Notes under the pieces: generated by a model
The model's input: the letters and a program-made list of their open reading frames with translations, nothing else
What the model was told of the DNA's origin: nothing
Databases searched by the model: none
Virus record (IMG/VR): IMGVR_UViG_3300017759_000111
Span: 1 to 20,909 of that record
Direction: 5' to 3' (one strand)
Origin: a virus
Length of the DNA stretch: 20,909 nt
Shown: positions 4,047-20,500 of the stretch, one piece after another
Numbering within the stretch: position 1 is the stretch's first letter
Layout of the letters: each line of letters starts with the position of its first letter
Translations under genes and position numbers: made by a program

Positions 4047-6677
4047 ATGACAGGTTACGTAAGGCAGTCTTCGGCAGACATTGTTGCAACAGCCGTTGTA
4101 CGTGCTAACCCATTAAATACTGAATTTAATACTTTACGTGATGCTTTTGCATTTCATTCTAGCGGAACTACAGGCCACAAACATGATGGGTCTTCTAGTG
4201 AAGGTTCTTATGTACCTCTTATTGCTGACTTAGATGCATTAAATAAAGTAGCTGTTGATACTAGCAATAATAGAGTTGGTGTTTTTGTTGAAGTAAGTAG
4301 TTCTGCAGTAGAACAGTTACGTGTTTCTGATGGGCTAGTAACCCCTGTAACTGACAATGACATTGATTTAGGTCAAAGTACTGTAGAGTTTAAAGACTTA
4401 TACTTAGACGGTACTGCACATATAGATACATTAGATGTAGATGAAAATGCTGCTATTATAGGTACGCTAACTGTAACAGGTGTAACTGCCCTCAATGGTG
4501 GTTTAACTATGGACAGCAATAAGTTTACTGTTGCAGATACTAGTGGTAACGTTGCTACAGCAGGTACTCTCTCGGTAACAGGTGTTACAGCACTTGACGG
4601 TGGCCTTACAATGGACACTGACAAGTTCACAGTAGCTGATACATCAGGTAACGTAGCTACAGCAGGTACTCTTGCTGTGACAGGTACATCTGCTTTTACA
4701 GGTGCAGTTACTGCTGATGCAGGTGTATCTATAGATAATATTACTATTGACGGTACAGAAATAGATTTATCTTCTGGTGATCTTACAGTAGACGTAGCAG
4801 GTGATATTATACTTGATGCTGATGGTGGTGACATCTTAGTTAAAGATGCTGGTACTACGTTTGGATCATTAACTAATACTAGCGGCAACTTAATCATTAA
4901 GTCAGGTACAACTACTGCAGCTACTTTTAGTGGAGCTAATGTAGATTTTGCTGGTACAGTAGATGTAACTGGTGCAGGAACATTTGATAGCACAGTAGCT
5001 GTAGCTGGTGTTTTGTCTCCTGCTACGCATGTAGATATGCCTGACAATGCTAAGATTAAAGTAGGTACAGGTGATGATCTTAACATCTACCATGATGGTT
5101 CTAACAGTTACATTGAGAATGCTACAGGGGCATTAAAGATTGCTACTGAAAGTAGCGGTATTGCTGTTACAATAGGACACAGTACTTCAGAAGTAACTGT
5201 TGCTGATAATCTTACTGTTGCAGGTAACTTAACTGTTACTGGTACACAGACTATTGTTGACACAGTTACAATGAATGCAGAAAATGCTATTGTGTTTGAA
5301 GGTGCAACAGCAGATGCACATGAAACTACATTAACTATTGTAGACCCTACAGCAGATCACACATACAAACTACCAGACTTAGGAAGTACTGCTGATGAAG
5401 GTTTTATTGCTGCTTTTGCTGCTGATCCCGGTAGTAGTCCTTTAGTCACAGCTACACCTACTGAGCTTAGTATTATGGATGGTGATACTAATGCTACATC
5501 TACAACACTAGCAGATGCAGACCGTGTAGTGGTTAATGACGCCGGTACGATGAAGCAGGTCGCACTGACTGACGTTTCAACATATGTTCTTGGTAATGTA
5601 ACTACAGTAGGTGCCTTGAACAGCGGCTCAATTACGTCTGGATTTGGTACTATTGATACTGGTTCATCTGCTATTACAACTACAGGAACAATAAACTTTG
5701 GTAGTTTAGCTGATGGAACTATTACAGTAACAGGGTTTGTAGATGAAGATAATATGTCATCTGATAGTGCTACACTTATTCCTACTCAACAGTCTGTTAA
5801 AGCATATGTAGCTACTATTGCAGGTCAGTCTAATAATATAGTTGGACTAACTGCTTCTGCAGATGAGTTAAATATCTTAGACGATGCTACAGTTACTACA
5901 GCAGAATTAAACATACTAGATGGTAGTGCAACAACACAAGCTACAGTTACACTAGCCGCAACAGACGGTGTTGTAATTAGTGATGCTGATGTAATGAAAC
6001 AGTGTCTTGTTAGTGACTTTGACACTTTTATGGCAAGTACAACTAAAACACTTACAAACAAGACTTTGACAAGTCCTACACTTAATGGTACAATAGTAGT
6101 AAGTGACGGTTCAAATGATTTTAACATTGCCTCACATGACGGTAGCAATGGACTTAAACTTGGTGGTACACTTGTTACTGCCTCTGCTACTGAACTAAAT
6201 ATACTAGATGGTGGTACTTCTGCTACATCAACTACAGTGGCAGATGCAGACCGTGTTGTTATGAATGATAATGGCACTATGGTTCAAGTAGCTGTAACAG
6301 ACCTTGCTGCATATTTTGACGATGAAATAACTGCAATGCCTAACCTTGTAACTACAGGAGCATTAAATTCAGGTAGTATTACATCTGGGTTTGGTACTAT
6401 TGATACAGGCTCTTCTGCTATTACTACTACAGGTCTTATTTCTGGTGGTTCATTAAACATTGGTGGTACTAATGTAACTTCTACTGCAGGAGAACTAAAT
6501 CTACTAGATGGAGGTACTTCTGTTGGTAGTTCAATAACAATAGCAGATGCTGATGGCTTTGTAGTTAATGATGGTGGAACAATGAAGACTATTCCAGCAA
6601 CAGATTTAAAAACTTACGCTAGTGGTAGTTCAGCCACTAAAGGTTTTGCTATTGCTATGGCAATCGTGTTCGGATAA
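4047..6677 (+). CDS. Repeat-built tail fibre protein
   Basis: An 876-residue fibre. The N-terminal segment (about 1-60) holds NTEFNTLRDAF and GTTGHKHDG (43-48 is GHKHDG), a pattern common at the virion-attached end of marine phage fibres; the His pair resembles metal-binding HxH knots in phage fibres. The shaft is Thr/Ser/Ala/Gly/Asp-rich with repeats: two 34-residue units at 141-174 and 175-208, then several ELNILDG-type units, including two long near-copies at 472-547 and 715-796. The protein ends in KGFAIAMAIVFG, a tail I recall from other marine phage fibres. It probably trimerises and binds host surface receptors. Ribosome binding site AGGAGA lies seven bases before the start. It directly follows the nozzle gene and leads the adhesion cluster. 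Confidence 0.85.
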   Translation: MTGYVRQSSADIVATAVVRANPLNTEFNTLRDAFAFHSSGTTGHKHDGSSSEGSYVPLIADLDALNKVAVDTSNNRVGVFVEVSSSAVEQLRVSDGLVTPVTDNDIDLGQSTVEFKDLYLDGTAHIDTLDVDENAAIIGTLTVTGVTALNGGLTMDSNKFTVADTSGNVATAGTLSVTGVTALDGGLTMDTDKFTVADTSGNVATAGTLAVTGTSAFTGAVTADAGVSIDNITIDGTEIDLSSGDLTVDVAGDIILDADGGDILVKDAGTTFGSLTNTSGNLIIKSGTTTAATFSGANVDFAGTVDVTGAGTFDSTVAVAGVLSPATHVDMPDNAKIKVGTGDDLNIYHDGSNSYIENATGALKIATESSGIAVTIGHSTSEVTVADNLTVAGNLTVTGTQTIVDTVTMNAENAIVFEGATADAHETTLTIVDPTADHTYKLPDLGSTADEGFIAAFAADPGSSPLVTATPTELSIMDGDTNATSTTLADADRVVVNDAGTMKQVALTDVSTYVLGNVTTVGALNSGSITSGFGTIDTGSSAITTTGTINFGSLADGTITVTGFVDEDNMSSDSATLIPTQQSVKAYVATIAGQSNNIVGLTASADELNILDDATVTTAELNILDGSATTQATVTLAATDGVVISDADVMKQCLVSDFDTFMASTTKTLTNKTLTSPTLNGTIVVSDGSNDFNIASHDGSNGLKLGGTLVTASATELNILDGGTSATSTTVADADRVVMNDNGTMVQVAVTDLAAYFDDEITAMPNLVTTGALNSGSITSGFGTIDTGSSAITTTGLISGGSLNIGGTNVTSTAGELNLLDGGTSVGSSITIADADGFVVNDGGTMKTIPATDLKTYASGSSATKGFAIAMAIVFG
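4467..4670 (+). repeat. Two tandem 34-residue fibre shaft repeats
   Basis: Bases 4467-4568 and 4569-4670 encode two near-identical 34-residue units, LxVTGVTALxGGLTMDxxKF followed by TVADTSGNVATAGT. A third, decayed unit starts at 4671 (LAVTGTSAF). The protein copies differ at few residues, whereas many codons differ synonymously. Confidence 0.9.
5460..6620 (+). repeat. Dispersed ELNILDG-type fibre repeats
   Basis: Long repeat copies at 5460-5687 and 6189-6434 share T-E-L-x-I-x-DG, ADADRVV, GTM and a fully identical 26-residue end (5610-5687 and 6357-6434). A third, shorter copy starts at 6489 (GELNLLDGGTS). Partial units with ELNILDD and ELNILDG lie between them at about 5860-5930. Such units are common in marine phage fibre shafts. 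Confidence 0.85.
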
Positions 6678-6689
6678 AGGGAAAGATAA

Positions 6690-7055
6690 ATGGCCGTAAT
6701 AAACTTAATTAATGTATCAAGTATTACTCCTACGACAGTAGCTGGTGCAGTAACAACAAGCAGAGCATCTATTATTGATGTTGCTGCAGATAAAGTAGCC
6801 AAAGTAAATACACTTATTATTGCAAACATTGATGGTACAAATGCTGCTACTGTTACTGTTGAGGTGAGCGTAGATAATGGCTCTAACTACGTACCCATAG
6901 CTAGTACAGTATCCGTACCTGCTGATGCAACTCTAGTTGTTGTAGGTAAAGACAATGGGTTCTACTTAGATGAAACAGACTTACTCGCAGTTACAGCTTC
7001 TGCAAACAGTGACTTAACTTATTTGTGTAGCTTTGAACTTATGGATGATGCATAA
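6690..7055 (+). CDS. Small beta-rich virion-like protein in the fibre cluster
   Basis: A 121-residue, Val/Thr/Ala-rich protein with no membrane segment. Strand-like stretches include KVNTLIIANIDG, ATVTVEVSVDNGSNYVPIAS, ATLVVVGKDNGFYLDETDLL and a C-terminal LTYLCSFELMDDA. The order (hydrophobic strand, A-N-x-D-G-T, paired strands, FYL..xD) resembles the protein at 767-1153, though identity looks low. I recall similar proteins among marine phage structural genes but know no assigned role. It lies 12 bases after the fibre gene and two bases before the first propeller-type gene, so it may be a connector or collar for the adhesins. The upstream AAAGGGAAAG stretch is a plausible ribosome binding site. 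Confidence 0.8.
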   Translation: MAVINLINVSSITPTTVAGAVTTSRASIIDVAADKVAKVNTLIIANIDGTNAATVTVEVSVDNGSNYVPIASTVSVPADATLVVVGKDNGFYLDETDLLAVTASANSDLTYLCSFELMDDA

Positions 7056-7057
7056 CA

Positions 7058-8257
7058 ATGGCAAGACGTAACGGTGGCTTTATTGGTACTGATGGATTAG
7101 ATGCACCTGATCCACCAACAGCTATTACACCTACGGCTGGTGATGCACAGGTAAGTGTAGCATTTACTGCTCCTACTGATACAGGTACTTCTGCTATCAC
7201 AGGTTTTGTTGCACAGGTTAGTACAGACGGTACAGCTTATAGTGCAGGTTCTGGTACAGGTACGTCTTCACCTATTGTTGTAAGCAGTCTTACTAACGGT
7301 ACTGCAGCTACAGCTAAAGTGTGGGCTATAAATGCTTACGGTACATCTTCTCCTAGCGATGCTAGTGCTAGTTTTACTCCTATTTTATCTATAGGTTTTT
7401 TTGTAGGGGGATATAATAGCGGTTTTGCTAGATTAAATCAAATACAAAATGTATCCATTGGCTCTACAGGTGACGCACAAGACTTTGGAGATTTAACTGA
7501 AACTGTTGCAGAAACTTCTTCTTTTGCCAGTAAAACAAGAGGATTACGAGCAGGAGGTCAAGCAAGTGGTAGAGCTGATGTAATAGATTTTTTTTCCGTA
7601 GCTAGTTCAGGGAATGCACAAGATTTTGGAGACTTATCTGCTGGTAGAAGATACTTGGCGGCGCTTTCAAATTCTACAAGAGGTATGGTTGGGGGAGGTC
7701 AAGAAGCCTCTAGCAGTACTAATACAATAGAGTATGTTACTATGGCTTCTGAAGGTAACGTTACAGATTTTGGAAATTTAATTTCTGATATAAAAGAAAT
7801 TACAGGTTTTGCATCACCAACAAGAGGTGTTTTTGGTGGGGGTACTACAGGTTCAAGGCAAGATGTAATACAGTATGTAACAATAGCTTCTACAGGCAAT
7901 GCTTCAGATTTTGGAGACTTATCTACTCCTTTAGATAGCCATACGGGTTGTTCTTCCTCTACTCGGGGGTTGTTTGGTGGTGGTGAAACTAGCAGTGGCA
8001 AAGTTAATACTATTGAATTTATTACCATAGCGTCTACAGGTAATGCTACAGATTTTGGAGACTTGGAAGTAACGGCTAATCATCTGTCTAGTTGCTCATC
8101 AGAGGTTAGGGGATTATTTGGAGGGGGAAACCCTTCAACTAATAGAATAGAATTTGTTACTATAGCCTCTACGGGGAACGGAACAGATTTTGGTGATTTA
8201 TTACAAGCCCAAGGCTTTTTTGCAAGTTGCTCTAGTGGTCATGGAGGACTTTCATAA
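7058..8257 (+). CDS. Fn3 plus six-repeat beta-propeller-type adhesin
   Basis: A 399-residue protein. Residues 15-107 form a fibronectin type III-like domain (PPTAITPTAGDAQVSVAFTA, then AITGFVAQVS, then SLTNGTAATAKVWAINAYG). From about 110 to 393 there are six repeats of 45-48 residues with the consensus TRGxFGGGx(6-9)NxIxYxTIASTGNAxDFGDL plus a variable tail ending in SS or SN. The last six residues, GHGGLS, look like the first strand of a seventh unit cut short. The repeat length and Gly-rich turns fit blades of a kelch-like six-bladed propeller, which is a structural inference. It is probably a receptor- or glycan-binding part of the tail tip. It overlaps the next gene by one base (TAATG), and that gene and the following one encode the same repeats with other N-termini. 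Confidence 0.85.
   Translation: MARRNGGFIGTDGLDAPDPPTAITPTAGDAQVSVAFTAPTDTGTSAITGFVAQVSTDGTAYSAGSGTGTSSPIVVSSLTNGTAATAKVWAINAYGTSSPSDASASFTPILSIGFFVGGYNSGFARLNQIQNVSIGSTGDAQDFGDLTETVAETSSFASKTRGLRAGGQASGRADVIDFFSVASSGNAQDFGDLSAGRRYLAALSNSTRGMVGGGQEASSSTNTIEYVTMASEGNVTDFGNLISDIKEITGFASPTRGVFGGGTTGSRQDVIQYVTIASTGNASDFGDLSTPLDSHTGCSSSTRGLFGGGETSSGKVNTIEFITIASTGNATDFGDLEVTANHLSSCSSEVRGLFGGGNPSTNRIEFVTIASTGNGTDFGDLLQAQGFFASCSSGHGGLS
7385..8254 (+). repeat. Six propeller-type repeats, copy 1
   Basis: Six units. Their ASTGNAxDFGDL-type cores read IGSTGDAQDFGDL, ASSGNAQDFGDL, ASEGNVTDFGNL, ASTGNASDFGDL, ASTGNATDFGDL and ASTGNGTDFGDL. The DNA coding these cores is also closely similar between units and with the next two genes, so homologous recombination between copies is possible. 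Confidence 0.9.
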
Positions 8258-9222
8258 TGCCCAACTATAATGGCGTATGGAGTATCTCAACACATCTTCA
8301 GTATGTTAGTGATTGGCCTGTTCCACCACAAAGAGGTATTATGGGTGGGGGTAGAACCTCTGCTGGTAATACTAATGTCATTCAGTTTATTAATATTATT
8401 ACTTTAGGTAATGCCGCAGACTTTGGTGATAGAACAGTAACACAGGCAAGACCTAGTGCTTTATCTTCAGCTACTAGAGGTGTGTTTGTTGGTGGTCAAA
8501 CAGGCAGTACTATTGATTACATTACGATAGCTACAACAGGCAATGCCACTGACTTTGGTGATCTCAACAACAGTCTAGGTGGATCACATAGCTATGGTGG
8601 TGGCTCTGTATCTAACGGTACAAGAGGTGTTACACACACTGCAACAGGTAGCAATCGTGATACACTGCAATATATTACTATAGCTTCAACAGGTGATGCT
8701 GCAGACTTTGGTAATTTAACTGTGTCAAGAAGGTCTTCTGATAAGGCTTGTAATTCAACTACAAGAGGCTGCATAGCTGGTGGTGTTGCTGCAGCACATG
8801 GTAGCGATGTAATAGATTATATCACTACAGCATCTACTGGAAACGCTACAGATTTTGGGAACTTGTCAGTAGGTAGATCACAAGGTGGTGGCGGTGGAAA
8901 CTCAGTGCGAGGAGTTTTTGGTGGTGGAGAAAACGCATCACAAGCTGCTGTAAATACAATAGATTACATTACTATAGCAAGTACGGGTAACGCTTCAGAT
9001 TTTGGTGACTTGTTAGCAACAAACTCAGGAACAATAGGAGCTTTATCAGGAACAACCAGACTTGTTTTTTGTGGTGGTTGGTCCGGTTCTGCTAGATTTG
9101 ATGTAATGCAGTCTGTTGAAATAGCTACAACAGGTAACTCTACTGACTTTGGTGACTTACTAGCTGCAGATAATGGTGTTTCTACATGTGGTATAAGTGA
9201 TGCACATGGAGGACTAGGATAA
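8257..9222 (+). CDS. Six-repeat beta-propeller-type adhesin with short N-terminal motif
   Basis: A 321-residue protein. A short N-terminus contains NGVWSISTHLQYVSDWPVP (residues 5-23), which shares the GVW...QY-V...WP pattern with the next gene. Six repeats of about 45-50 residues follow from residue 26, each with a ...TRGxxxGG...IxYITIASTGNAxDFGDL core; the third has lost the GGG and the sixth has VEIATTGNSTDFGDL. The protein ends AHGGLG, matching the ends of both neighbouring paralogues. The variable loops after DFGDL are Gly- and Ser-rich and differ strongly between paralogues, as expected for ligand-contact loops. The start overlaps the previous stop by one base (TAATG), suggesting coupled translation. 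A tail-tip adhesin is the likeliest role; no enzyme motif is visible. Confidence 0.85.
   Translation: MPNYNGVWSISTHLQYVSDWPVPPQRGIMGGGRTSAGNTNVIQFINIITLGNAADFGDRTVTQARPSALSSATRGVFVGGQTGSTIDYITIATTGNATDFGDLNNSLGGSHSYGGGSVSNGTRGVTHTATGSNRDTLQYITIASTGDAADFGNLTVSRRSSDKACNSTTRGCIAGGVAAAHGSDVIDYITTASTGNATDFGNLSVGRSQGGGGGNSVRGVFGGGENASQAAVNTIDYITIASTGNASDFGDLLATNSGTIGALSGTTRLVFCGGWSGSARFDVMQSVEIATTGNSTDFGDLLAADNGVSTCGISDAHGGLG
8332..9219 (+). repeat. Six propeller-type repeats, copy 2
   Basis: Six units from RGIMGGG at residue 26 to the terminal AHGGLG. Cores read IITLGNAADFGDR, IATTGNATDFGDL, IASTGDAADFGNL, TASTGNATDFGNL, IASTGNASDFGDL and IATTGNSTDFGDL. Confidence 0.9.
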
Positions 9223-10259
9223 TGTCATATAAACAAATGACAGGCAACATAATCTCTGCCACAAAAGTAGAACCTAGTGGTCAGTTTCAGGATGATGCAG
9301 CATCTGGTGTGTGGAACTTACAAGATCAATATGATTATGTAAGAGGTGGTAATTGGCCTACGTCTGGGAATGCACAAAGAGGTTTTTTTGCAAGCTTTGA
9401 TCCTCAAAGTGGTTCTAAAACTATTAAATCTATTAATTTATCTACCACAGGTAATGATGGTTCTGATTGGGCAGATTTGCATACAATCGTTAGAAATGGT
9501 GGAAAAGGTCAATGTTCTTCCTCTACACGTGCTATAGTTTTTATGGGTATAGTAGATTCAACCAATGCTAGAGTAAATAATATTCAATATTATAATATGG
9601 TTACAGCAGGTGATGGTGCTGATTTTGGAGATGCTACTACTGCAGCATATGAACCGGGTTCTCTTTCTAATGGTACAAGAGCTATTAGAGTGGGTGGTGG
9701 CACAAATGCAAACAATATTATTGAATATGTAACTATTGATACAACTGGCAATGCTACTGATTTTGGTGATTTTGATGAAAATTCTTATGGTCAGGCAGGA
9801 CTTGCATCTACAACAAGAGGACTTTTTTGTGGAGGTTATGACAGTAATCAAAGGGATGAAATTAAATATATTACTATAGCCTCTACAGGTGATGTTACTG
9901 ATTTTGGCAATCTTTTAACAACTAATTTATCTCCCGGCGCACTTGCTAGTAGTACAAGAGGGGTAATAGCTGGTGGCTTTGTTAGCAGCAGTATTAATGT
10001 TATACAATACGTTACCATAGCTTCAACTGGAAATGCTTCAGACTTTGGTGACTTAACAGAAACTAAACAATCACCGGCTGGAGCTTCTTCTAAAACACTT
10101 GGTTATTTTGCAGCAGGGACAAGTGCGCCAAGTGGTGATAATACTAGAATTGAACATATAGTTATTGCATCAACAGGAAATGCAAGTGACTTTGGTGATC
10201 TTGGATTGCAATACACTCTTGCAGGTACTGCTTCAGTTTCACACGGCGGTTTAGCATAA
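9222..10259 (+). CDS. Six-repeat beta-propeller-type adhesin with longer N-terminus
   Basis: A 345-residue protein. The N-terminus (1-52) starts MSYKQMTGNIIS and contains SGVWNLQDQYDYVRGGNWP (28-46), the longer form of the motif in the upstream paralogue; it could be the part that docks onto the tail. Six repeats follow from residue 53. The first two are the most divergent (STTGNDGSDWADL and VTAGDGADFGDA), while the last four are canonical (…IASTGNASDFGDL). The C-terminus is SHGGLA. The gene is the last of the three-paralogue array and starts inside the previous stop (TAATG). Its DNA is locally more AT-rich (25% GC in bases 9541-9600) than the second paralogue, so the three copies have not been homogenised recently. 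Likely a receptor-binding virion protein. Confidence 0.85.
   Translation: MSYKQMTGNIISATKVEPSGQFQDDAASGVWNLQDQYDYVRGGNWPTSGNAQRGFFASFDPQSGSKTIKSINLSTTGNDGSDWADLHTIVRNGGKGQCSSSTRAIVFMGIVDSTNARVNNIQYYNMVTAGDGADFGDATTAAYEPGSLSNGTRAIRVGGGTNANNIIEYVTIDTTGNATDFGDFDENSYGQAGLASTTRGLFCGGYDSNQRDEIKYITIASTGDVTDFGNLLTTNLSPGALASSTRGVIAGGFVSSSINVIQYVTIASTGNASDFGDLTETKQSPAGASSKTLGYFAAGTSAPSGDNTRIEHIVIASTGNASDFGDLGLQYTLAGTASVSHGGLA
9378..10256 (+). repeat. Six propeller-type repeats, copy 3
   Basis: Six units from QRGFFAS to the terminal SHGGLA. The first two units are degenerate in the core motif and the last four are canonical. This is the same unit length and number as in the two preceding genes. Confidence 0.88.
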
Positions 10260-10279: not shown

Positions 10280-11128
10280 ATGAAAGATACAATTCAAGAA
10301 ACGGCATTAGCTACAACAGACCTTAACATCCAGCTTCCATCTGCGAAGCCTGAGTACAAGTCTATGTTGGCTAACATTAAAGATAAAGCTCCTGCTATTG
10401 CACAGGCATCTACTAACTTTTACAAGTCTCACTCACAGATGATGAGTGTTACACTAGACGTAACTGCAATCACTCCTATCCGTTCTGTGAAGCACTCACT
10501 AGCTGAGATTGAGAAGACTAAAGCTGCTCTGCAAGAGGGCTACTTCAATATGAAAAAGAAAGAAGTAAAACTCAAAAAGCTAGAACGTAAGCTAAGTATG
10601 GAGACAGACGATCTTGAGCAGGAAATGCTAGAAATAAAGATCAACGAAATGCAAGCACAAGCAGCTAGTGGTCGTGGTTATGTTGAGGCTGCTGTTCGTA
10701 AGTTAAACTTCTTTACCAACCAGTATGAAAACTTGATGAAGAAGATTGGCAAAGAAGAGCTTACTGAGGCTGACTATGAGTTAGAGGAAATTAAGTATCA
10801 CATTATGACCTGTATGAAACAGGCACTTAATTCTGCAAGACCACGCAACGGTGTGATTGACGAAGGTAACATGATCTACTTATTTGATCTTGGGATTAAT
10901 GCAGCACAGGCACAGCTTGAAGTTATGTCATACCTTAATTGGGAAAATGAGCTTGTCAAAGAAGGTAAAGCCCCAGAGCATCATCACACTGTTCAATGGC
11001 TAGAGGCTTGTGCAGACAAGTGGGCGCATTGTCCCAGTGATTTTGCAGAGAGCCGTGGGTTTGTCATATATGACGAAACATCTTTGACCAATACACCACA
11101 GATAGAGGATAAAACAGATGGCGTATAA
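10280..11128 (+). CDS. Long coiled-coil protein of unknown function
   Basis: A 282-residue, mostly helical protein. Residues about 71-165 are heptad-rich and charged (AEIEKTKAALQEGYFNMKKK; KLERKLSMETDDLEQEM), a strong coiled-coil candidate. A helical C-terminal part follows, with HHH at about 233-235 and several Trp residues (NWENEL, VQWLEACADKWAH). There is no signal peptide or membrane segment. I recall similar proteins in marine phage genomes but no assigned role. It could be a virion, chaperone or tail-assembly protein; its place directly after the adhesin genes would suit a fibre assembly factor, which is inference. Codon use is less AT-biased than in the adjacent adhesin genes (many AAG, AAC and TAC codons). 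A purine stretch, AAGAAAG, precedes the start. Confidence 0.85.
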   Translation: MKDTIQETALATTDLNIQLPSAKPEYKSMLANIKDKAPAIAQASTNFYKSHSQMMSVTLDVTAITPIRSVKHSLAEIEKTKAALQEGYFNMKKKEVKLKKLERKLSMETDDLEQEMLEIKINEMQAQAASGRGYVEAAVRKLNFFTNQYENLMKKIGKEELTEADYELEEIKYHIMTCMKQALNSARPRNGVIDEGNMIYLFDLGINAAQAQLEVMSYLNWENELVKEGKAPEHHHTVQWLEACADKWAHCPSDFAESRGFVIYDETSLTNTPQIEDKTDGV

Positions 11129-11465
11129 AGTAGTAAAGTACAGACTAGAATCAAATGGTACGATACCTACATGGTTAAAGTTTGGTGTACCTCAAAGTAC
11201 AGGTGGTATGTACCCTGTATTTGATCCTGATACAGCAAGTCCTCAAGATTGGATTATGATAGGCATAGCTGATGATGGTGCAGACATATCAGGTGCTATT
11301 GCTGAGATTACATCTAAGGCAGACTTGCAAACATACCTGACTAATATGGCAAGTGCAAATAGTTGGACTGATCCTGATCCTAGTGACCCTGATGAAACCA
11401 TTGCGTTTGATCCTGCAGCCCACGCTAAACGTGTTTGGGATGATTTAGACACACTTAATGGATAA
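11118..11465 (+). CDS. Small acidic protein of unknown function
   Basis: A 115-residue acidic protein. The N-terminus, YKVVKYRLESNGTIPTWLKFG followed by GGMYPVFDP, resembles small proteins from marine phages that begin with Y-K-x-V-x-Y and G-T-x-P. The middle is DWIMIGIADDGADISGAIAE, and the tail has repeated Asp/Pro (DPDPSDPDETIAFDP). It overlaps the previous gene by 11 bases and has an AGAGGA ribosome binding site inside that gene, nine bases before the start. The next gene starts inside its stop codon (TAATG). Function unknown; the tight coupling suggests production with its neighbours. Confidence 0.82.
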   Translation: MAYKVVKYRLESNGTIPTWLKFGVPQSTGGMYPVFDPDTASPQDWIMIGIADDGADISGAIAEITSKADLQTYLTNMASANSWTDPDPSDPDETIAFDPAAHAKRVWDDLDTLNG

Positions 11466-11902
11466 TGAGTATTTTAATTTATGCTAAAATACCTATTAAT
11501 AAATTATACTTTGGTGTATCTCGTAGTTTAAATGAAGATAGATATGTTTATGCAAGAGAAAAAATAAAAAAGTCCATACTTAAAGAAGGATTAAACAACC
11601 CTTTATGTTGTGGTAATGTAAAACAAGACGGCACATACAAAGTTAATAGAGGCAATCAGTGCCTAGCAGCTTTACAAGAGTTAAACGTTGATACAGTTTC
11701 TTGTATTGTTTGTTGCAAACAAGACAGTTTAAATAATCCACAAGGTATAAAAGTTACAGTAAAAGACCTTAGTAAATTTTTTAAATCAGGTATTAGTGCA
11801 ATACGTGCAGAAGCATATCCTGAGTGTTTTGAGGCCATACCCTCTGATTATCAAGAGTATGATCCTAATAAATTACAAATAAGGAATAATAACAATGACT
11901 AA
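11465..11902 (+). CDS. ParB/sulfiredoxin-fold protein with altered motif
   Basis: A 145-residue protein. The start, IPINKLYFGVSRS (9-21), the helix REKIKKSILKEGLNNPLCC (31-49) and then YKVNRGNQCLAALQELNVD (58-76) followed by TVSCIVC match the ParB N-terminal/sulfiredoxin-like fold (strand, helix, E-G-L-x-x-P-L, Y-x-V-x-x-G-N). In ParB-like proteins the G-N-x-R-x-x-A box contains an arginine used for nucleotide binding; here that position is Cys66. Cysteines are unusually many (48, 49, 66, 80, 83, 84 and one near 120). Small ParB-like proteins are frequent in marine phages with unknown roles, sometimes called nucleases without proof. It sits among small late genes, starting in the previous stop (TAATG) and overlapping the next gene by eight bases. 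No helix-turn-helix is evident. Confidence 0.75.
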   Translation: MSILIYAKIPINKLYFGVSRSLNEDRYVYAREKIKKSILKEGLNNPLCCGNVKQDGTYKVNRGNQCLAALQELNVDTVSCIVCCKQDSLNNPQGIKVTVKDLSKFFKSGISAIRAEAYPECFEAIPSDYQEYDPNKLQIRNNNND

Positions 11903-12167
11903 AGATAGTTGGCACATGAATAAATCTATACCAATAACATTAATTTTTGGTTTGTTTGTACAAGGTGCAGCTATTATCTGGTCAGTATCAGGCATGGTAT
12001 CAGACATTAAGTACAACAAGGCTACTATATCAGAAGTACGTACAGACAATGCTAGACTAGCTAGTGAAGTACATGAGAATGACGTAATGATTGCACGTAT
12101 TGATGCCAATGTAGAAGCAATTAAGGAAGCATTAAATGTGGTTACAACTAGTCACGCACAGAATTAA
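11895..12167 (+). CDS. Small membrane protein with coiled coil, holin- or spanin-like
   Basis: A 90-residue protein. Residues 11-31 (SIPITLIFGLFVQGAAIIWSV) form one transmembrane helix near the N-terminus. After it, residues about 45-82 are a charged heptad-like helix (ISEVRTDNARLASEVHENDV). One N-terminal membrane segment plus a periplasmic coiled coil is the layout of inner-membrane spanins, and also of some small holin-like phage proteins. No endolysin or lipoprotein partner is visible in the window, so lysis function is inference. Ribosome binding site AAGGA lies about ten bases upstream, inside the preceding gene, which it overlaps by eight bases. It is followed after four bases by another gene with a membrane segment. 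Confidence 0.8.
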   Translation: MTKDSWHMNKSIPITLIFGLFVQGAAIIWSVSGMVSDIKYNKATISEVRTDNARLASEVHENDVMIARIDANVEAIKEALNVVTTSHAQN

Positions 12168-12991: not shown

Positions 12992-15655
12992 ATGACAGCA
13001 ATTCAATTTCAAGGATTTAAACCAGAAGCAATGCAACGTATAGCTGGTACGTTGGGCTATAAAGGTGACATGAAAAAGTTTAAGGACTTTTTAAAGTCTG
13101 ATCCTGAAGCATTGTCAAAGTTTGAGGACTTTCAAAGTAAAGCTATACAAATGGTGCAAGGTGGTATGGTACGTAAACAATACCATGACGGGGGTGTAGC
13201 AGGACATGTACACGATGAAAGTAATCCCGATCCAGATGCTGCCAATGATGGTGCTGCAGGTGATGGTGCTGCAGGTGATGGTGCTGCAGGTGATGGTGCT
13301 GCAGGTGATGGTGCTGCAGGTGATGGTGATGGTGATACTACTACTGCTGTGAATACCATAGGTCAAACTACAGTAGATCGTATGCAAGCACCTGCATTAC
13401 CTACTGGTGGTAAAGTAACAGCTACTGGTATTGTTGCTCAAACATCTGAAGATATTGCTGCAGGTTCTGGTGCTGTGGGTACTTTCGATGCAGCGGGAAA
13501 TAGAATTGGTGATCCTGCAGCAACTGCTAGTGAAGGTGTAGCTAAAGGAACAGGGGCATTTCGTGACCCAAGAAAATCTTATGAAGCAACAGAAGATACT
13601 ACAAACCTTGCAAAAAAAGGCGAGTATGACACTTTATACAATAACTTAATTAATAGTGGGGCCATTCCAGAACAAGTCATTACCGCATACAAACGTGATG
13701 GAACTGTAACTGCTGGGTATCAAGGTTTAATAGACGCTTATGACGCTGCATTTCCAAAGGGCGCTATTAGCAATGCTAGGGATGCACAGACAGGTAAAGC
13801 TACAGCTACTGTAACTGCTGATAAAGCAGAAACTAGAATGGGTGAAGTTGTAGGGGGAGTTACCAGAGATTACAAACAAGTTGGCGCTGATGAAGCTGGT
13901 TTCACGCCTCCCCCTGCCGGTACGCCTGTCACAGCGGCAGCAGAGGCTTTTCATAATCCAATAACAGGTGAAATAGTTACTGTTAATACAGGCGGTTACA
14001 CTGCACCTAAAGGCTGGGTTAAAGGCGCTCCAACAGAGCAGTTTCAAGAGGGTGGAGCTAAAGCGGCACAAGGCACTGTATCCGATAGAGCAGAAATGGA
14101 TGCAGTAACAGCTAGTGCTACAGATGTAGCTGGACTTGGTTTAAAAGATGAATATGATAAAGATGGCAAGCTAATTACTAAAGGCATCGAACAGATTTTA
14201 ACTAAAGATGTATATGATAAAGATGGCAACCTTATAAAATCTGCAAATGTAAATCAAATTGATGCATTAAATGATGCCACTAAACGTAAGTTGCAAACTG
14301 AAAATGTATATGATGCAGATGGTAATATTATTAGCTATGGAGAAATTGTAAGTGAAGCTGGATTTACTGACAAAGAACAATCTAAAGTAGATACTACAAT
14401 AGATAAAGCAAAAGCTGCACAAATAGATACAGGTGCCAGAGATACATACGATAAAGATGGCAATCTTATTAAAAAAGGTGACAAAGGATATACAGTTAAA
14501 GCACAACTAGAAGGGTTGATGGAAGACTTTGAAGGTGGTGCTTCACCAGCATGGGCAGCAGGAGCTATGAGACAAGCTACAGCAACTCTTGCTGCACGTG
14601 GGCTAGGTGCTAGTAGCATGGCAGGACAAGCCATTGTACAAGCAGCTATGGAGGCTTCACTGCCTATTGCACAAGCTGATGCTGCAACCATTGCACAGTT
14701 TGAAAGAGACAATCTTAGCAACAGACAACAGACTACTATGCTTGCTGCACAACAAAGAGCAGACTTTCTTAAATTAGAGTTTGATCAAAAGTTTCAATCA
14801 AGAGTAATTAATGCATCTAAAATTAGTGATATTGCTAATTTAAATTTTACTGCTGATCAACAAATTACTTTAGAAAATGCAAGAATAGTAGCTACAGCAG
14901 ACTTATCAAACATGAGCGCAAAGAATGCTAAAATTATGGCTGATGCTGCAACTATGGCAGCTATGGATTTTAAAAATTTAGATAATAAACAACAGGCTGC
15001 TGCCTTAAACGCTAAAGCTTTATTAGATATGGACTTTAAAAATTTAGATAATAGACAACAAGTTCAAGTATTTAAAAATCAAGCTCGTGCAAATGTAATA
15101 CTTTCAGATCAAGCAGCAACTAATGCAGCTAAACAATTTAACGCTAGTTCAGAAAACCAAGCAGAACAATTCTTTACTAATCTTAGAGAACAAGTTAGTC
15201 AATTTAATGTAGCACAAAGTAATGCTATGGAACAGTTTAATAAAGGCGAAGAAAATTCTATTGCTAAATTTAACCAAGAAGTAGTAAATCAACGAGATCA
15301 ATTTAATGCACAAAACGCATTAGTAGTTGCACAGTCTAATGCTGTTTGGCGTAGAGAAATTGCAACTGCATCAAATGCCGCTACTAATAGAGCTAATGAA
15401 CTTAATGCTGCGGCTCTACTTGATGTATCTAATACGGCGTATAATAATCTGTGGCAAGAACATGCTGATCAAATGGAATGGGCATGGACTTCATCAGATA
15501 ACGAGCGAGATAGACAAAATGCTGTAACGCTAAGTCATTTAGCAGCAAATAGAGAAAGAACACAGGCAGAAATGGAAGCAGACTTAGCGTCCTCAAATCT
15601 TATAGGAGATTTTGTAGGTACATTAATGTCAAACGCAGTATCAAGCATTGTTTAA
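12992..15655 (+). CDS. Large internal/virion structural protein with repeats
   Basis: An 887-residue protein. The first 60 residues are helical (EAMQRIAGTLGYKGDMKKFK). Next come a His/Gly segment (YHDGGVAGHVHD, 64-75) and five perfect DGAAG repeats at 86-110 that end in GDGDGD. Four YDKDGNLI-type motifs lie at 388, 408, 440 and 486. From about 500 to 880 the protein is Ala/Gln/Asn-rich and helical, with repeated QFN and FKNLDN units (QAATNAAKQFNASSENQAEQ; NAVWRREIATASNAATNRAN). The latter part resembles a virion structural protein I know from marine cyanophages. An internal or ejected virion role is inferred from the helical, Ala/Gln-rich make-up and from the genes that follow. It has its own promoter and an AGAGGA ribosome binding site. 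Confidence 0.85.
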   Translation: MTAIQFQGFKPEAMQRIAGTLGYKGDMKKFKDFLKSDPEALSKFEDFQSKAIQMVQGGMVRKQYHDGGVAGHVHDESNPDPDAANDGAAGDGAAGDGAAGDGAAGDGAAGDGDGDTTTAVNTIGQTTVDRMQAPALPTGGKVTATGIVAQTSEDIAAGSGAVGTFDAAGNRIGDPAATASEGVAKGTGAFRDPRKSYEATEDTTNLAKKGEYDTLYNNLINSGAIPEQVITAYKRDGTVTAGYQGLIDAYDAAFPKGAISNARDAQTGKATATVTADKAETRMGEVVGGVTRDYKQVGADEAGFTPPPAGTPVTAAAEAFHNPITGEIVTVNTGGYTAPKGWVKGAPTEQFQEGGAKAAQGTVSDRAEMDAVTASATDVAGLGLKDEYDKDGKLITKGIEQILTKDVYDKDGNLIKSANVNQIDALNDATKRKLQTENVYDADGNIISYGEIVSEAGFTDKEQSKVDTTIDKAKAAQIDTGARDTYDKDGNLIKKGDKGYTVKAQLEGLMEDFEGGASPAWAAGAMRQATATLAARGLGASSMAGQAIVQAAMEASLPIAQADAATIAQFERDNLSNRQQTTMLAAQQRADFLKLEFDQKFQSRVINASKISDIANLNFTADQQITLENARIVATADLSNMSAKNAKIMADAATMAAMDFKNLDNKQQAAALNAKALLDMDFKNLDNRQQVQVFKNQARANVILSDQAATNAAKQFNASSENQAEQFFTNLREQVSQFNVAQSNAMEQFNKGEENSIAKFNQEVVNQRDQFNAQNALVVAQSNAVWRREIATASNAATNRANELNAAALLDVSNTAYNNLWQEHADQMEWAWTSSDNERDRQNAVTLSHLAANRERTQAEMEADLASSNLIGDFVGTLMSNAVSSIV
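13247..13321 (+). repeat. Five perfect 15-base tandem repeats
   Basis: Unit GATGGTGCTGCAGGT, five exact copies at 13247, 13262, 13277, 13292 and 13307, followed by a GATGGTGATGGTGAT tail. The unit is a multiple of three and encodes DGAAG, so changes in copy number keep the frame. Exact identity, even at wobble bases, points to recent expansion by slippage. Confidence 0.97.
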
Positions 15656-17503: not shown

Positions 17504-20500
17504 ATGTCTGATATTTCTAATATGTTTGAGGGTATTACGCTTGACAGTAGTATAAAAAAACAACCATCAATAGATATTGTAACTCAAACAAATCAAGATG
17601 ATCTTTCAAGTATGTTTGAAGGTGTTGAACTAGAATCTAAAGAAAACAGTGTTGCATTAGAACAATCTAATGTGCAGCGTGGTGTGCCATCAGGTGATGC
17701 TGGACCGCAAGTACCACGTGCTGATCCTGTAGATGATCCCCTTGGGGCAGATGCTGCTTTGTCTAGTGAAATGCAAAGCAGTATATATAATCGTGAACGC
17801 ACATTAATGGAAGAACTGTCTGGTTATGTAACACCAGAAGGTACAGTAGTACCTAGCCAATATAAAGAAGATTCTGTATTAGATGAAATAAACAGAAATA
17901 GACCAGAAGGTACAGCAGATGTATTTGATATAGATGATATGTCAAAAGAAGAAACTGCTAAAGTTAAAGCTGAGTTTATAAAAGAAATGACTACATTTAA
18001 AACTAATGAGGTACGTGATCCTATGCAGTACCTTATTGCTGGTGTAGCTAAAGTAGACTTAAAGTTAGGTATTAAACTAGCAGATGGTATTCAATACGCT
18101 ATGGCAGGTGTTGGTGATATTATGATAAAAGATATGGAGCTTGCTAAGAATGGTACGTATGGTGTAATAGGTGAGCAATTTTATGAGAGTGCAAAGAATT
18201 TACTGTCTGGTTTTGGTAGATTTAAAAAGAAGTCAAGTCCTAGAGAATTAGTACTGGGCTATGGTGAGGCTATAGGTGCAGCTACAGAAGCAATGGGTGC
18301 ATCTGTTCTAAGCACAGGCACAGTATCTACTATGTATAGTGCAAATGCCATAACTAAAAACATGAGAACTTTAAAAGAACAAGAGGCAAAGTTTACTGCT
18401 AGACGAAATACTGTTTCTTTAATGGAAGGTGCAACTAAAGAAGCTGTACGTGAAGCACAGGAACGTGCCAGAAAAGCTGCAGCCGTTGCAGATAATACAG
18501 TTACACAAGACGTTATTGAATCTATTGAAATGAAGTTAGGTGGTAGACGTATATCAGATGGTGAAGTAGGAAACAAAGTAGTAAACTATGATACAGTACG
18601 TAATGTCGGTAGGTCTATTACTTATGAAGCCTTTGATAAACAGAAATTAAAAGAAGGTAGAACTACTGCAGAATTTATGCGTGATATAACTCCCGGTGCA
18701 GGAGATAGTTCTCAACAAGGCGTTACAGATTTAGCTAGAATAAACACCCCTAATCAAACTTTGTACGAACCAATAATGAAACCTGAAAATATTGATGCTT
18801 TGATAGCAATAGCTGACAGGTATAAAAAAAGATTTGAAGGAGTAAAGGATGCAGATGGAGTTCCGTTATGGAATAACAAATTTCCTGATGGATCAAAACG
18901 TCCTGTCATAGATATTTTATTTGACCTTACTGCAAAAAGAGACTTGATACCTGACCAACAATTAATAGATGATTTAGCAGAATTTGGAATGTCCTTTGAA
19001 GAATATGGTATGTCTATTATAGGTGATTTTAGTTTGGCAGGTACTATACTGCAAAAAGCGGCTGTACTTGGTAAACTAACTCCTGCAAGACAACTAGACT
19101 TTGAAAGAAATCGTGCTATACTTGAGGCAGAAAGTGTTCCTGCTAAAATGTGGGCTAGACTTGAGGGCGTTAGAAAAGGTATGATGGTTTCTCAATTTGC
19201 TACAATGGCACGTAACTTTACTAGTACATTTATTCGTGCGCCACTTGAAGGTTTGTTTAATGTAGTAGACAGTGCTATGATTGAGTATGATAAACCAATT
19301 AGATTAGCTAAAAAAGGTGAACGTCCACAGGGAGGTTTTGTAGGGGCAGGATATAAATTAATCTCTCCTGATAACTGGAAAAGAAGTTTTAAATTATTTG
19401 ATTTAATGTACAACAGACCTGATGTAGCTGCTGACATGACAGATTTATTGTTAAAGCGTCCTGAGTTAGCTAAACAAGCATCAATGTTTTATGAACGTGT
19501 TAATGATATTCAAGTTGCAAGAGGGCGTGGGACTAACACCTTTACCGAAAAACTTACTGAAGGACAGTATGCAGATGCAATTTTATCTGAGGCAGAAGAT
19601 ATTGTAGGTGCATTAAACATTCCTAATACTCTACAGGAAATGATGACACGTAAAGCTATTTTTATTAGTGAGTTAGAAAGAACTGTCTTTGATAATTATA
19701 ACATTGACTTTCGTGACGCTTTACTAGAAGGTAAACTTCCTAACCTATTAAAAGATACTTCTGATGTTAGGCCAGAGGGCGCACCTAGTTTTCTTACTCT
19801 TGTAGATGAAGCTAATTACAGAGCCTTGGCAGGTACATACGCTGGTGAACCGCAGGTTCCAATGCTTAAAGAATTAAATAGATTTATTAGTAAGTATGGT
19901 ACAATAGTAGAGCCATTCTCTAGGTTTCTTTTTTCTAGCATGGAATTTATGGGACAGTCTATGGGTGGGGCATCAATACCTCTTACCAAAAAAATACTTA
20001 ATCTAACCACTATGGGTACAGCCTATAAAGATTATAGTTGGAACCCTAAAAAACCAAATCCTTTTACTACTAAAGACAGAGAACGTGTAGCTAGAAATAT
20101 AGTAGGTATAGCTACTGTGCTTGCAGGTATTAAATTACTTAAAGCCACAGGCACAGAAACAGACGAAGCAGAAATGGTTATTACTGGACCTACTAATGAT
20201 CAGATAGATGCGTTTTTAATTAAGGCAGAAGAGGAAAGAGAGTATATTAATAATGATAAGACCCTTGATCCTGCCTACAAAAAACAAGAGTTTGCTAGAC
20301 TAGACTTTGAAATATCTGAAATGTTAAGGGCTAGATCAGAAGGAGTAGAAATAAATACTACTGCTATATATCCTTTTGCACAGTTTAAATACTTGTCTAA
20401 GGCAGCTATTGACGTAGAGAATGGTGTGTTCTTAGATAAATTTAATTACCTAGAGTTTAGGGATTTGTTCTTATCATCTAGTCTAAGATCACCAAATCAA

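Follow-up and report, generated by a model that had tools for sequence, protein, structure and literature searches.

The stretch of viral DNA analysed here, from an uncultured marine phage (20,909 nucleotides, IMG/VR record IMGVR_UViG_3300017759_000111; hereafter the window) carries an array of three consecutive open reading frames (ORFs) built from one repeat, at 7058-8257 (399 amino acids, aa), 8257-9222 (321 aa) and 9222-10259 (345 aa), referred to as genes 1-3. One-base overlaps (CATAATG and GATAATG) join the genes, and each protein contains six repeat copies, mostly of 44-52 residues, as counted in two ways: by cutting at DFGDL and with a hidden Markov model (HMM) of the repeat. Both counts confirm, at exact coordinates, the layout given in a preliminary description made from the letters of the window (three ORFs joined by TAATG, six repeats each). 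The first copy in gene 3 is degenerate (SDWADL, 7.9 bits with the repeat HMM); the remaining copies score 36-80 bits each, so the six-copy pattern is not a matter of chance. The parts of the array are:

7058-7393, + strand: gene 1 anchor, residues 1-112, MARRNGGFIGTDGLDAPD peptide and fn3-like domain (weak fn3 match)
7394-8254, + strand: gene 1 ring, six blades and closing half repeat, a variable cassette (DFGDL cuts, HMM)
8257-8331, + strand: gene 2 anchor, residues 1-25, MPNYNGVWSI...WP (conserved DNA island 8231-8328)
8332-9219, + strand: gene 2 ring, six blades, in the protein used for modelling (DFGDL cuts, HMM, AlphaFold2, Foldseek)
9222-9371, + strand: gene 3 anchor, residues 1-50, GNIISATKVEP...GVWNL...GGNWP (conserved DNA island 9200-9360)
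9372-10256, + strand: gene 3 ring, six blades, the first degenerate; HGGL coded with GGCGGT and no coupled gene after it (DFGDL cuts, HMM, codons)

The gene 1 anchor, whose peptide begins NGGFIG..., is conserved between phages, and DNA identity to relatives reaches about 7381-7414. Every blade has two variable loops, one after DFGDL, as the preliminary description had stated, and a second between GG and NxIxY that it had missed.

Predicted fold of the rings

Kelch propellers consist of six four-stranded blades and are closed by a C-terminal strand 1. The proteins of genes 1-3 open with strands 2-4 of blade 1, and each ends in a half repeat of 18-20 residues, terminating in HGGL, that supplies strand 1 of the same blade; this order is the permutation expected of a self-closing propeller. 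AlphaFold2 modelling of the gene 2 protein with 59 relatives gave a closed ring (predicted local distance difference test, pLDDT, 88.2; predicted template modelling score, pTM, 0.87) with six four-strand groups, 24 strands in all, the last of which (311-314) closes the ring. When the model was compared with the PDB by Foldseek, the top matches were six-bladed kelch domains (a Plasmodium kelch protein, KLHL12 and Keap1), with E down to 6e-16, template modelling scores by target up to 0.87 and identity of about 12%; among viral models the matches were uncultured Caudovirales and other phage kelch-like proteins.

The rings share with the kelch domains of Keap1 and KLHL12 six four-stranded blades of about 47 residues, closure by C-terminal strand 1 and a Gly-Gly ending strand 2 (columns 20 and 21 are glycine in 79% and 88% of 2,098 blades). 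They differ in the low identity, in the absence of a BTB domain and in their consensus, TRGxFxGG...IDYITIASTGNATDFGDL; genes 1-3 have no match to the Pfam kelch models at E up to 1. A PDB sequence search with gene 2 found no match, and Pfam and PADLOC scans of it returned nothing. The gene 2 protein is best described, on the model, as having a predicted kelch fold without recognisable membership of a kelch sequence family, a fold strongly supported by the prediction together with the blade counts given below.

Blade number and split rings

Relatives were collected as 228 loci (IMG/VR plus the window; given here as L numbers), later enlarged to 319. With the repeat HMM, 348 of the 389 distinct complete ORFs in the 228 loci have six blades, 19 have twelve and one has eighteen; in the 319 loci the figures are 407, 25 and 1 among 464 complete ORFs, so that 433 of 464 are multiples of six, and the 31 others comprise 26 halves of split rings and five ORFs with weak or partial blades. 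When loci were found through the 3' border gene, and so were not picked for ring likeness, the picture was the same, with six blades in 113 of 126 before refinement. Across 115 arrays with both border genes, blade totals are 18 in 58, 12 in 40, 24 in 7, 30 in 3 and 6 in 4; the total is divisible by six in 112, with three exceptions, and about 40 arrays total two rings. The model of a twelve-blade protein (pLDDT 82, pTM 0.53) has two 24-strand blocks and a low-confidence linker at 343-350. An apparent seven-blade gene in L156 was set aside as a probable spurious match inside an fn3 region, the gene being normal in the refined count. The 18 blades of one 933-aa protein (L226:6923-9724) presumably form three rings within a single chain.

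The preliminary description had proposed a closed six-bladed ring and not a solenoid, which the gene 2 prediction bears out, and a repeat number that does not vary freely, which holds in relatives as multiples of six even in fused or split genes. Of its six-by-three arrangement the six is constant and the three is not, the number of rings per array ranging from one to about five.

Rings divided over two ORFs were found at the following places, and also in L138 and L252 (a family with L253) and in L255:

L116:3780-4984, L047:7213-8390, L253:3001-4172, L307:50-993
L089:4785-5782, L035:7971-8972, L040:8917-10032, L053:6535-7742
L177:5382-6377, L214:8014-8975, L272:5406-6448

In all 13 split pairs the blades sum to six (1+5, 2+4 or 3+3). 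The split always lies in the strand 2-3 loop, in different blades, with a typical end RGVFxGGxx* and restart MxxVNxIDYITI, and the junctions are mostly TAATG or a near-adjacent start; in several, the blade's own Gly-Gly is coded GGAGG or GGGGG in the position of a ribosome-binding site. A 3+3 split has been kept over synonymous divergence (dS) of 0.5-0.9 in a family comprising L138/L252/L253, L047/L255 and L307, with both halves under purifying selection (ratio of nonsynonymous to synonymous rates, dN/dS, about 0.13-0.35); this persistence and selection rule out sequencing error as the source of the splits in these loci.

We infer that the halves co-assemble into one ring. There is about an even chance that in this phage group the ring is an exchangeable plug-in which can come from a single gene, be joined to one or two further rings in the same protein, or be made by the products of two adjacent genes that co-assemble as a two-chain ring, the split always falling in the strand 2-3 loop, where the blade's Gly-Gly codons can serve as the ribosome-binding site for the new start, as the HGGL codons do at gene borders. 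Nothing else in the system is as surprising as these apparently two-chain rings. According to a published study, a propeller nearly always consists of one chain, and fragments of WD40 propellers failed to assemble into hetero-oligomers (PMC6805158). As in the multi-chain propellers made in the laboratory, separate chains would make one ring; the laboratory propellers, however, are homo-oligomers, hetero-oligomers having been unobtainable (PMC6805158), whereas here natural adjacent ORFs encode complementary halves. The split rings are thus candidates for the natural two-chain propellers that were not obtained with WD40 fragments (PMC6805158), and bear on propeller evolution.

Exchange, variation and coupling of the rings

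The array lies between two conserved border genes and downstream of a fibre-like gene:

4047-6677, + strand: upstream fibre-like tail protein, 876 aa (phrog_8215, baseplate wedge initiator, 8e-9)
6690-7055, + strand: conserved border gene 5' of the array, 121 aa (ORF call, DNA identity of relatives)
10280-11128, + strand: conserved border gene 3' of the array, 282 aa (phrog_1409, unknown)

DNA identity between the window and its relatives is mostly about 77-95% over 6473-7381 and 10283-11465; it stops at the start of the gene 1 ring and returns mainly at 8231-8328 and 9200-9360, the anchors of genes 2 and 3. In the comparison with L006, identity is mostly 91-99% in the flanks, 53-63% in rings 1 and 2 and mostly 87-93% in ring 3. 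In 124 loci (whose ring pairs are not mutually independent), pairs with 3' border proteins at least 95% identical have a median ring 1 identity of 45%, the same as unrelated pairs. Some pairs have a single ring in common (L026/L049, L045/L073, L005/L043 and L036/L042), the last being a mosaic with ring 1 at 53% and ring 2 at 99%. Rings are not specific to a slot, the median identity being 44.4% within slot 1 and 44.5% between slots 1 and 2; rings that are nearly identical can sit on different anchors in two different slots (slot 2 of L172 and slot 1 of L167, 95%; L149/L028, 91%; L188/L054, 83%). Judged from these alignments, rings are shown to be swapped as whole cassettes between phages and between slots, probably by recombination for which the conserved anchors and border genes would give the flanking homology.

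Of 42 long ORFs that follow the last ring and encode no ring themselves, 28 have a slot-3-type anchor (GVW..W), and the three of them that were scanned all have DUF7483 / tail-fibre heads. A slot-3-type anchor with DUF7483 (PF24299) tail-fibre heads replacing the ring is seen at L022:5827-7869, L045:9832-11835 and L009:8930-11029.

Within rings, too, variation is concentrated. By entropy over the 2,098 blades, the 4-1 and 2-3 loops vary in sequence and length, and the 1-2 (SSxTRG) and 3-4 (STGNATDFG) turns are conserved. In 54 close ring pairs, with no ring entering twice, the two loops show amino-acid change of 0.25-0.27 and a ratio of nonsynonymous to synonymous differences (pN/pS) of 0.45-0.53, compared with 0.05-0.14 and 0.06-0.27 in the rest of the ring; nearly all indels lie in the 2-3 loop. 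In kelch propellers the 2-3 and 4-1 loops share one face, which in Keap1 is the ligand side; by this topology the variable loops would fall on one face of the ring, and the conserved turns on the opposite one. No reverse transcriptase or template repeat of a diversity-generating retroelement is apparent in the window's ORFs or tandem repeats, the genome being incomplete and no dedicated search having been made.

Two candidate ribosome-binding sites lie within the coding sequence of the rings:

8243-8247, + strand: GGAGG in the HGGL codons of gene 1, 9 bases 5' of the gene 2 ATG, proposed Shine-Dalgarno site
9208-9212, + strand: GGAGG in the HGGL codons of gene 2, 9 bases 5' of the gene 3 ATG

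Of the genes that have a coupled ring gene behind them, 167 of 187 code the Gly-Gly of HGGL with GGAGG, against 11 of 76 without one (Fisher p 6e-32, ignoring relatedness; the baseline for blade Gly-Gly is 17%). The window fits this pattern, with GGAGGA in genes 1 and 2 and GGCGGT in gene 3. This strong codon evidence argues that the HGGL codons of one ring gene provide the ribosome-binding site of the next, in which case a conserved protein motif would double as a regulatory site, a clear instance of coding and regulatory constraints that overlap.

Probable role in host recognition and genomic setting

We consider it probable that the three genes are a translationally coupled modular tail adhesin array, with closed six-bladed heads on slot-specific anchors. 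Each gene would comprise a slot-specific N-terminal anchor and a C-terminal kelch-like head closed by the strand that completes blade 1; the anchors would dock the rings onto the tail or fibre, the variable face would bind host-surface molecules (for example glycans or other envelope receptors), and several swappable rings may broaden or shift the hosts recognised. A variable head on a conserved attachment end, a trait of receptor-binding proteins, is present in the ring proteins, and elsewhere rings are joined to tail-tip and tail-fibre proteins. A J/TipJ-like protein of Desulfobacter vibrioformis DSM 8776 has the ring as its C-terminal part (L242:450-4232; phrog_31 1.5e-85, PF13550), and in lambda J it is the C-terminal end that binds the receptor. 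In L048 the ring is fused to a tail fibre and LamG protein, and in other contigs its partners are NHL repeats or a lactonase-like propeller with fn3. The fusions and the tail context support, without proving, a host-binding role; receptor binding itself is suggested by the exchange, the loop variation and the J/TipJ fusion. The multi-adhesin idea of the preliminary description is likewise supported, by ring-by-ring exchange, by the J/TipJ and tail-fibre fusions and by the tail-fibre heads on slot-3 anchors, with receptor binding as its conjectural part. DSM 8776, an isolate, is a possible system for the study of ring function.

Several points weigh against this reading. The fold assigned to genes 1 and 3 derives from the gene 2 model and the shared repeat; in the library and PDB sequence searches the rings match no protein of assigned function; and the cultured HMO-2011-type phages examined are without rings, so that a location in the virion is putative. 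Loop pN/pS is about 0.5 and not above 1, so positive selection is not established. The exchange is seen in metagenome contigs, where misassembly could create some mosaics, though hardly recurrent borders consistent with the slots.

It is unlikely that the rings are enzymes, such as depolymerases or sialidase-like hydrolases, which digest host surface polysaccharide and do not simply bind it. Propellers occur in phage endosialidases, and six-bladed ones have been predicted as domains of Klebsiella phage depolymerases (PMC4901313; PMC11448410); here, however, the near-invariant TRG, GG and STGNxxDFGD recur in each blade, at turns and strands, the variation sits in the loops, and no one set of conserved residues outside the repeat looks catalytic. 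Somewhat less probable again is a structural role, as spacers or as decoration proteins in the tail or capsid whose rapid evolution reflects weak constraint, with which the loop pN/pS could agree as relaxed constraint and for which the lack of a known ligand also speaks, but whole-ring replacement in near-identical phages, movement between slots, strict blade number and the C-terminal position in J/TipJ fit host recognition better. Tandem repeats of 45-50 residues can form solenoids, and an open solenoid or fibre whose six copies are a coincidence of recent duplication was also considered; it is very improbable, being mainly refuted by the closed-ring model with its closing strand, the kelch matches and the multiples of six found even in split and fused genes, and we rejected it on the closed model and the blade counts.

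The proposed adhesin array has partial parallels among known systems. Propellers are found in known or putative phage host-recognition proteins, namely phi11 Gp45 (five blades), PRD1 P2 (a distorted five-bladed one) and phiKZ gp131 (seven blades) (PMC4901313), but that of phi11 forms the central domain of a trimeric protein with stem, platform and tower (PMC4901313), whereas the rings are six-bladed C-terminal heads on short anchors, several distinct ones per phage. In metaviromic islands, too, host-recognition genes vary among otherwise closely related marine phages (PMC3909814); the genes listed there are tail fibre, C1q, lectin-like and carbohydrate-binding genes, kelch not being mentioned, and the unit exchanged here differs in being a defined ring that also moves between slots. 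The literature searched gives no account of this ring system under the terms used, although subscription journals were mostly outside its coverage and an earlier description is possible. Host change in uncultured marine phages is largely unknown, partly since adhesins are hard to recognise; with a common recognisable head, a fixed blade count, slots, exchange borders and a variable face, ring content could track host recognition in metagenomes, and single purified rings could serve to test it.

The array follows the fibre-like gene and tail genes related to those of HMO-2011-type podoviruses, a tail-module position beside fibre genes, and the best reading of the source is a podovirus distantly related to HMO-2011. 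Relatedness to HMO-2011 and CRP-1 is seen in a tail gene (52% to CRP-1) and, at a greater distance, in the long gene at 17504; the fibre gene of HMO-2011 is followed by a run of small tail-fibre and C1q genes, and no rings were found in the HMO-2011 and CRP-1 stretches examined. The repeat is uncommon among cultured phages: in 50,697 phage records tblastn found nothing for gene 2 at 1e-5 and, for gene 1, no more than distant matches (S-SKS1 and AG-345-L05), and the gene 1 anchor had no match in cultured phages. Synechococcus phage S-SKS1 (L235:1663-3060) has related repeats, with nine weak matches in one protein; under the repeat HMM they are without the DFGD half and do not follow the rule of six, and probably represent a more distant branch of different count or architecture. 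Matches in Lokiarchaeota, Parcubacteria and other bacteria and archaea seem to be phage contigs that were mis-binned, and no host was inferred from them.

Elsewhere in the window, the middle of the fibre gene (4440-6190) aligns patchily to relatives, forming a second variable region that adjoins the rings, and the interval of a ParB-like gene (145 aa, 11465-11950) is replaced or missing in L006, with both sides about 91-99% identical. The gene at 1890-4043 matches phrog_5107 'amidase', which looks mis-annotated; related CRP phages label the family a structural or tail protein. An 887-aa protein (12992-15655) contains a perfect 15-base tandem repeat (13246-13336, 5.5 copies, coding GDGAA repeats), repeated YDKDGNLI and a 66-base repeat at 14962-15085.

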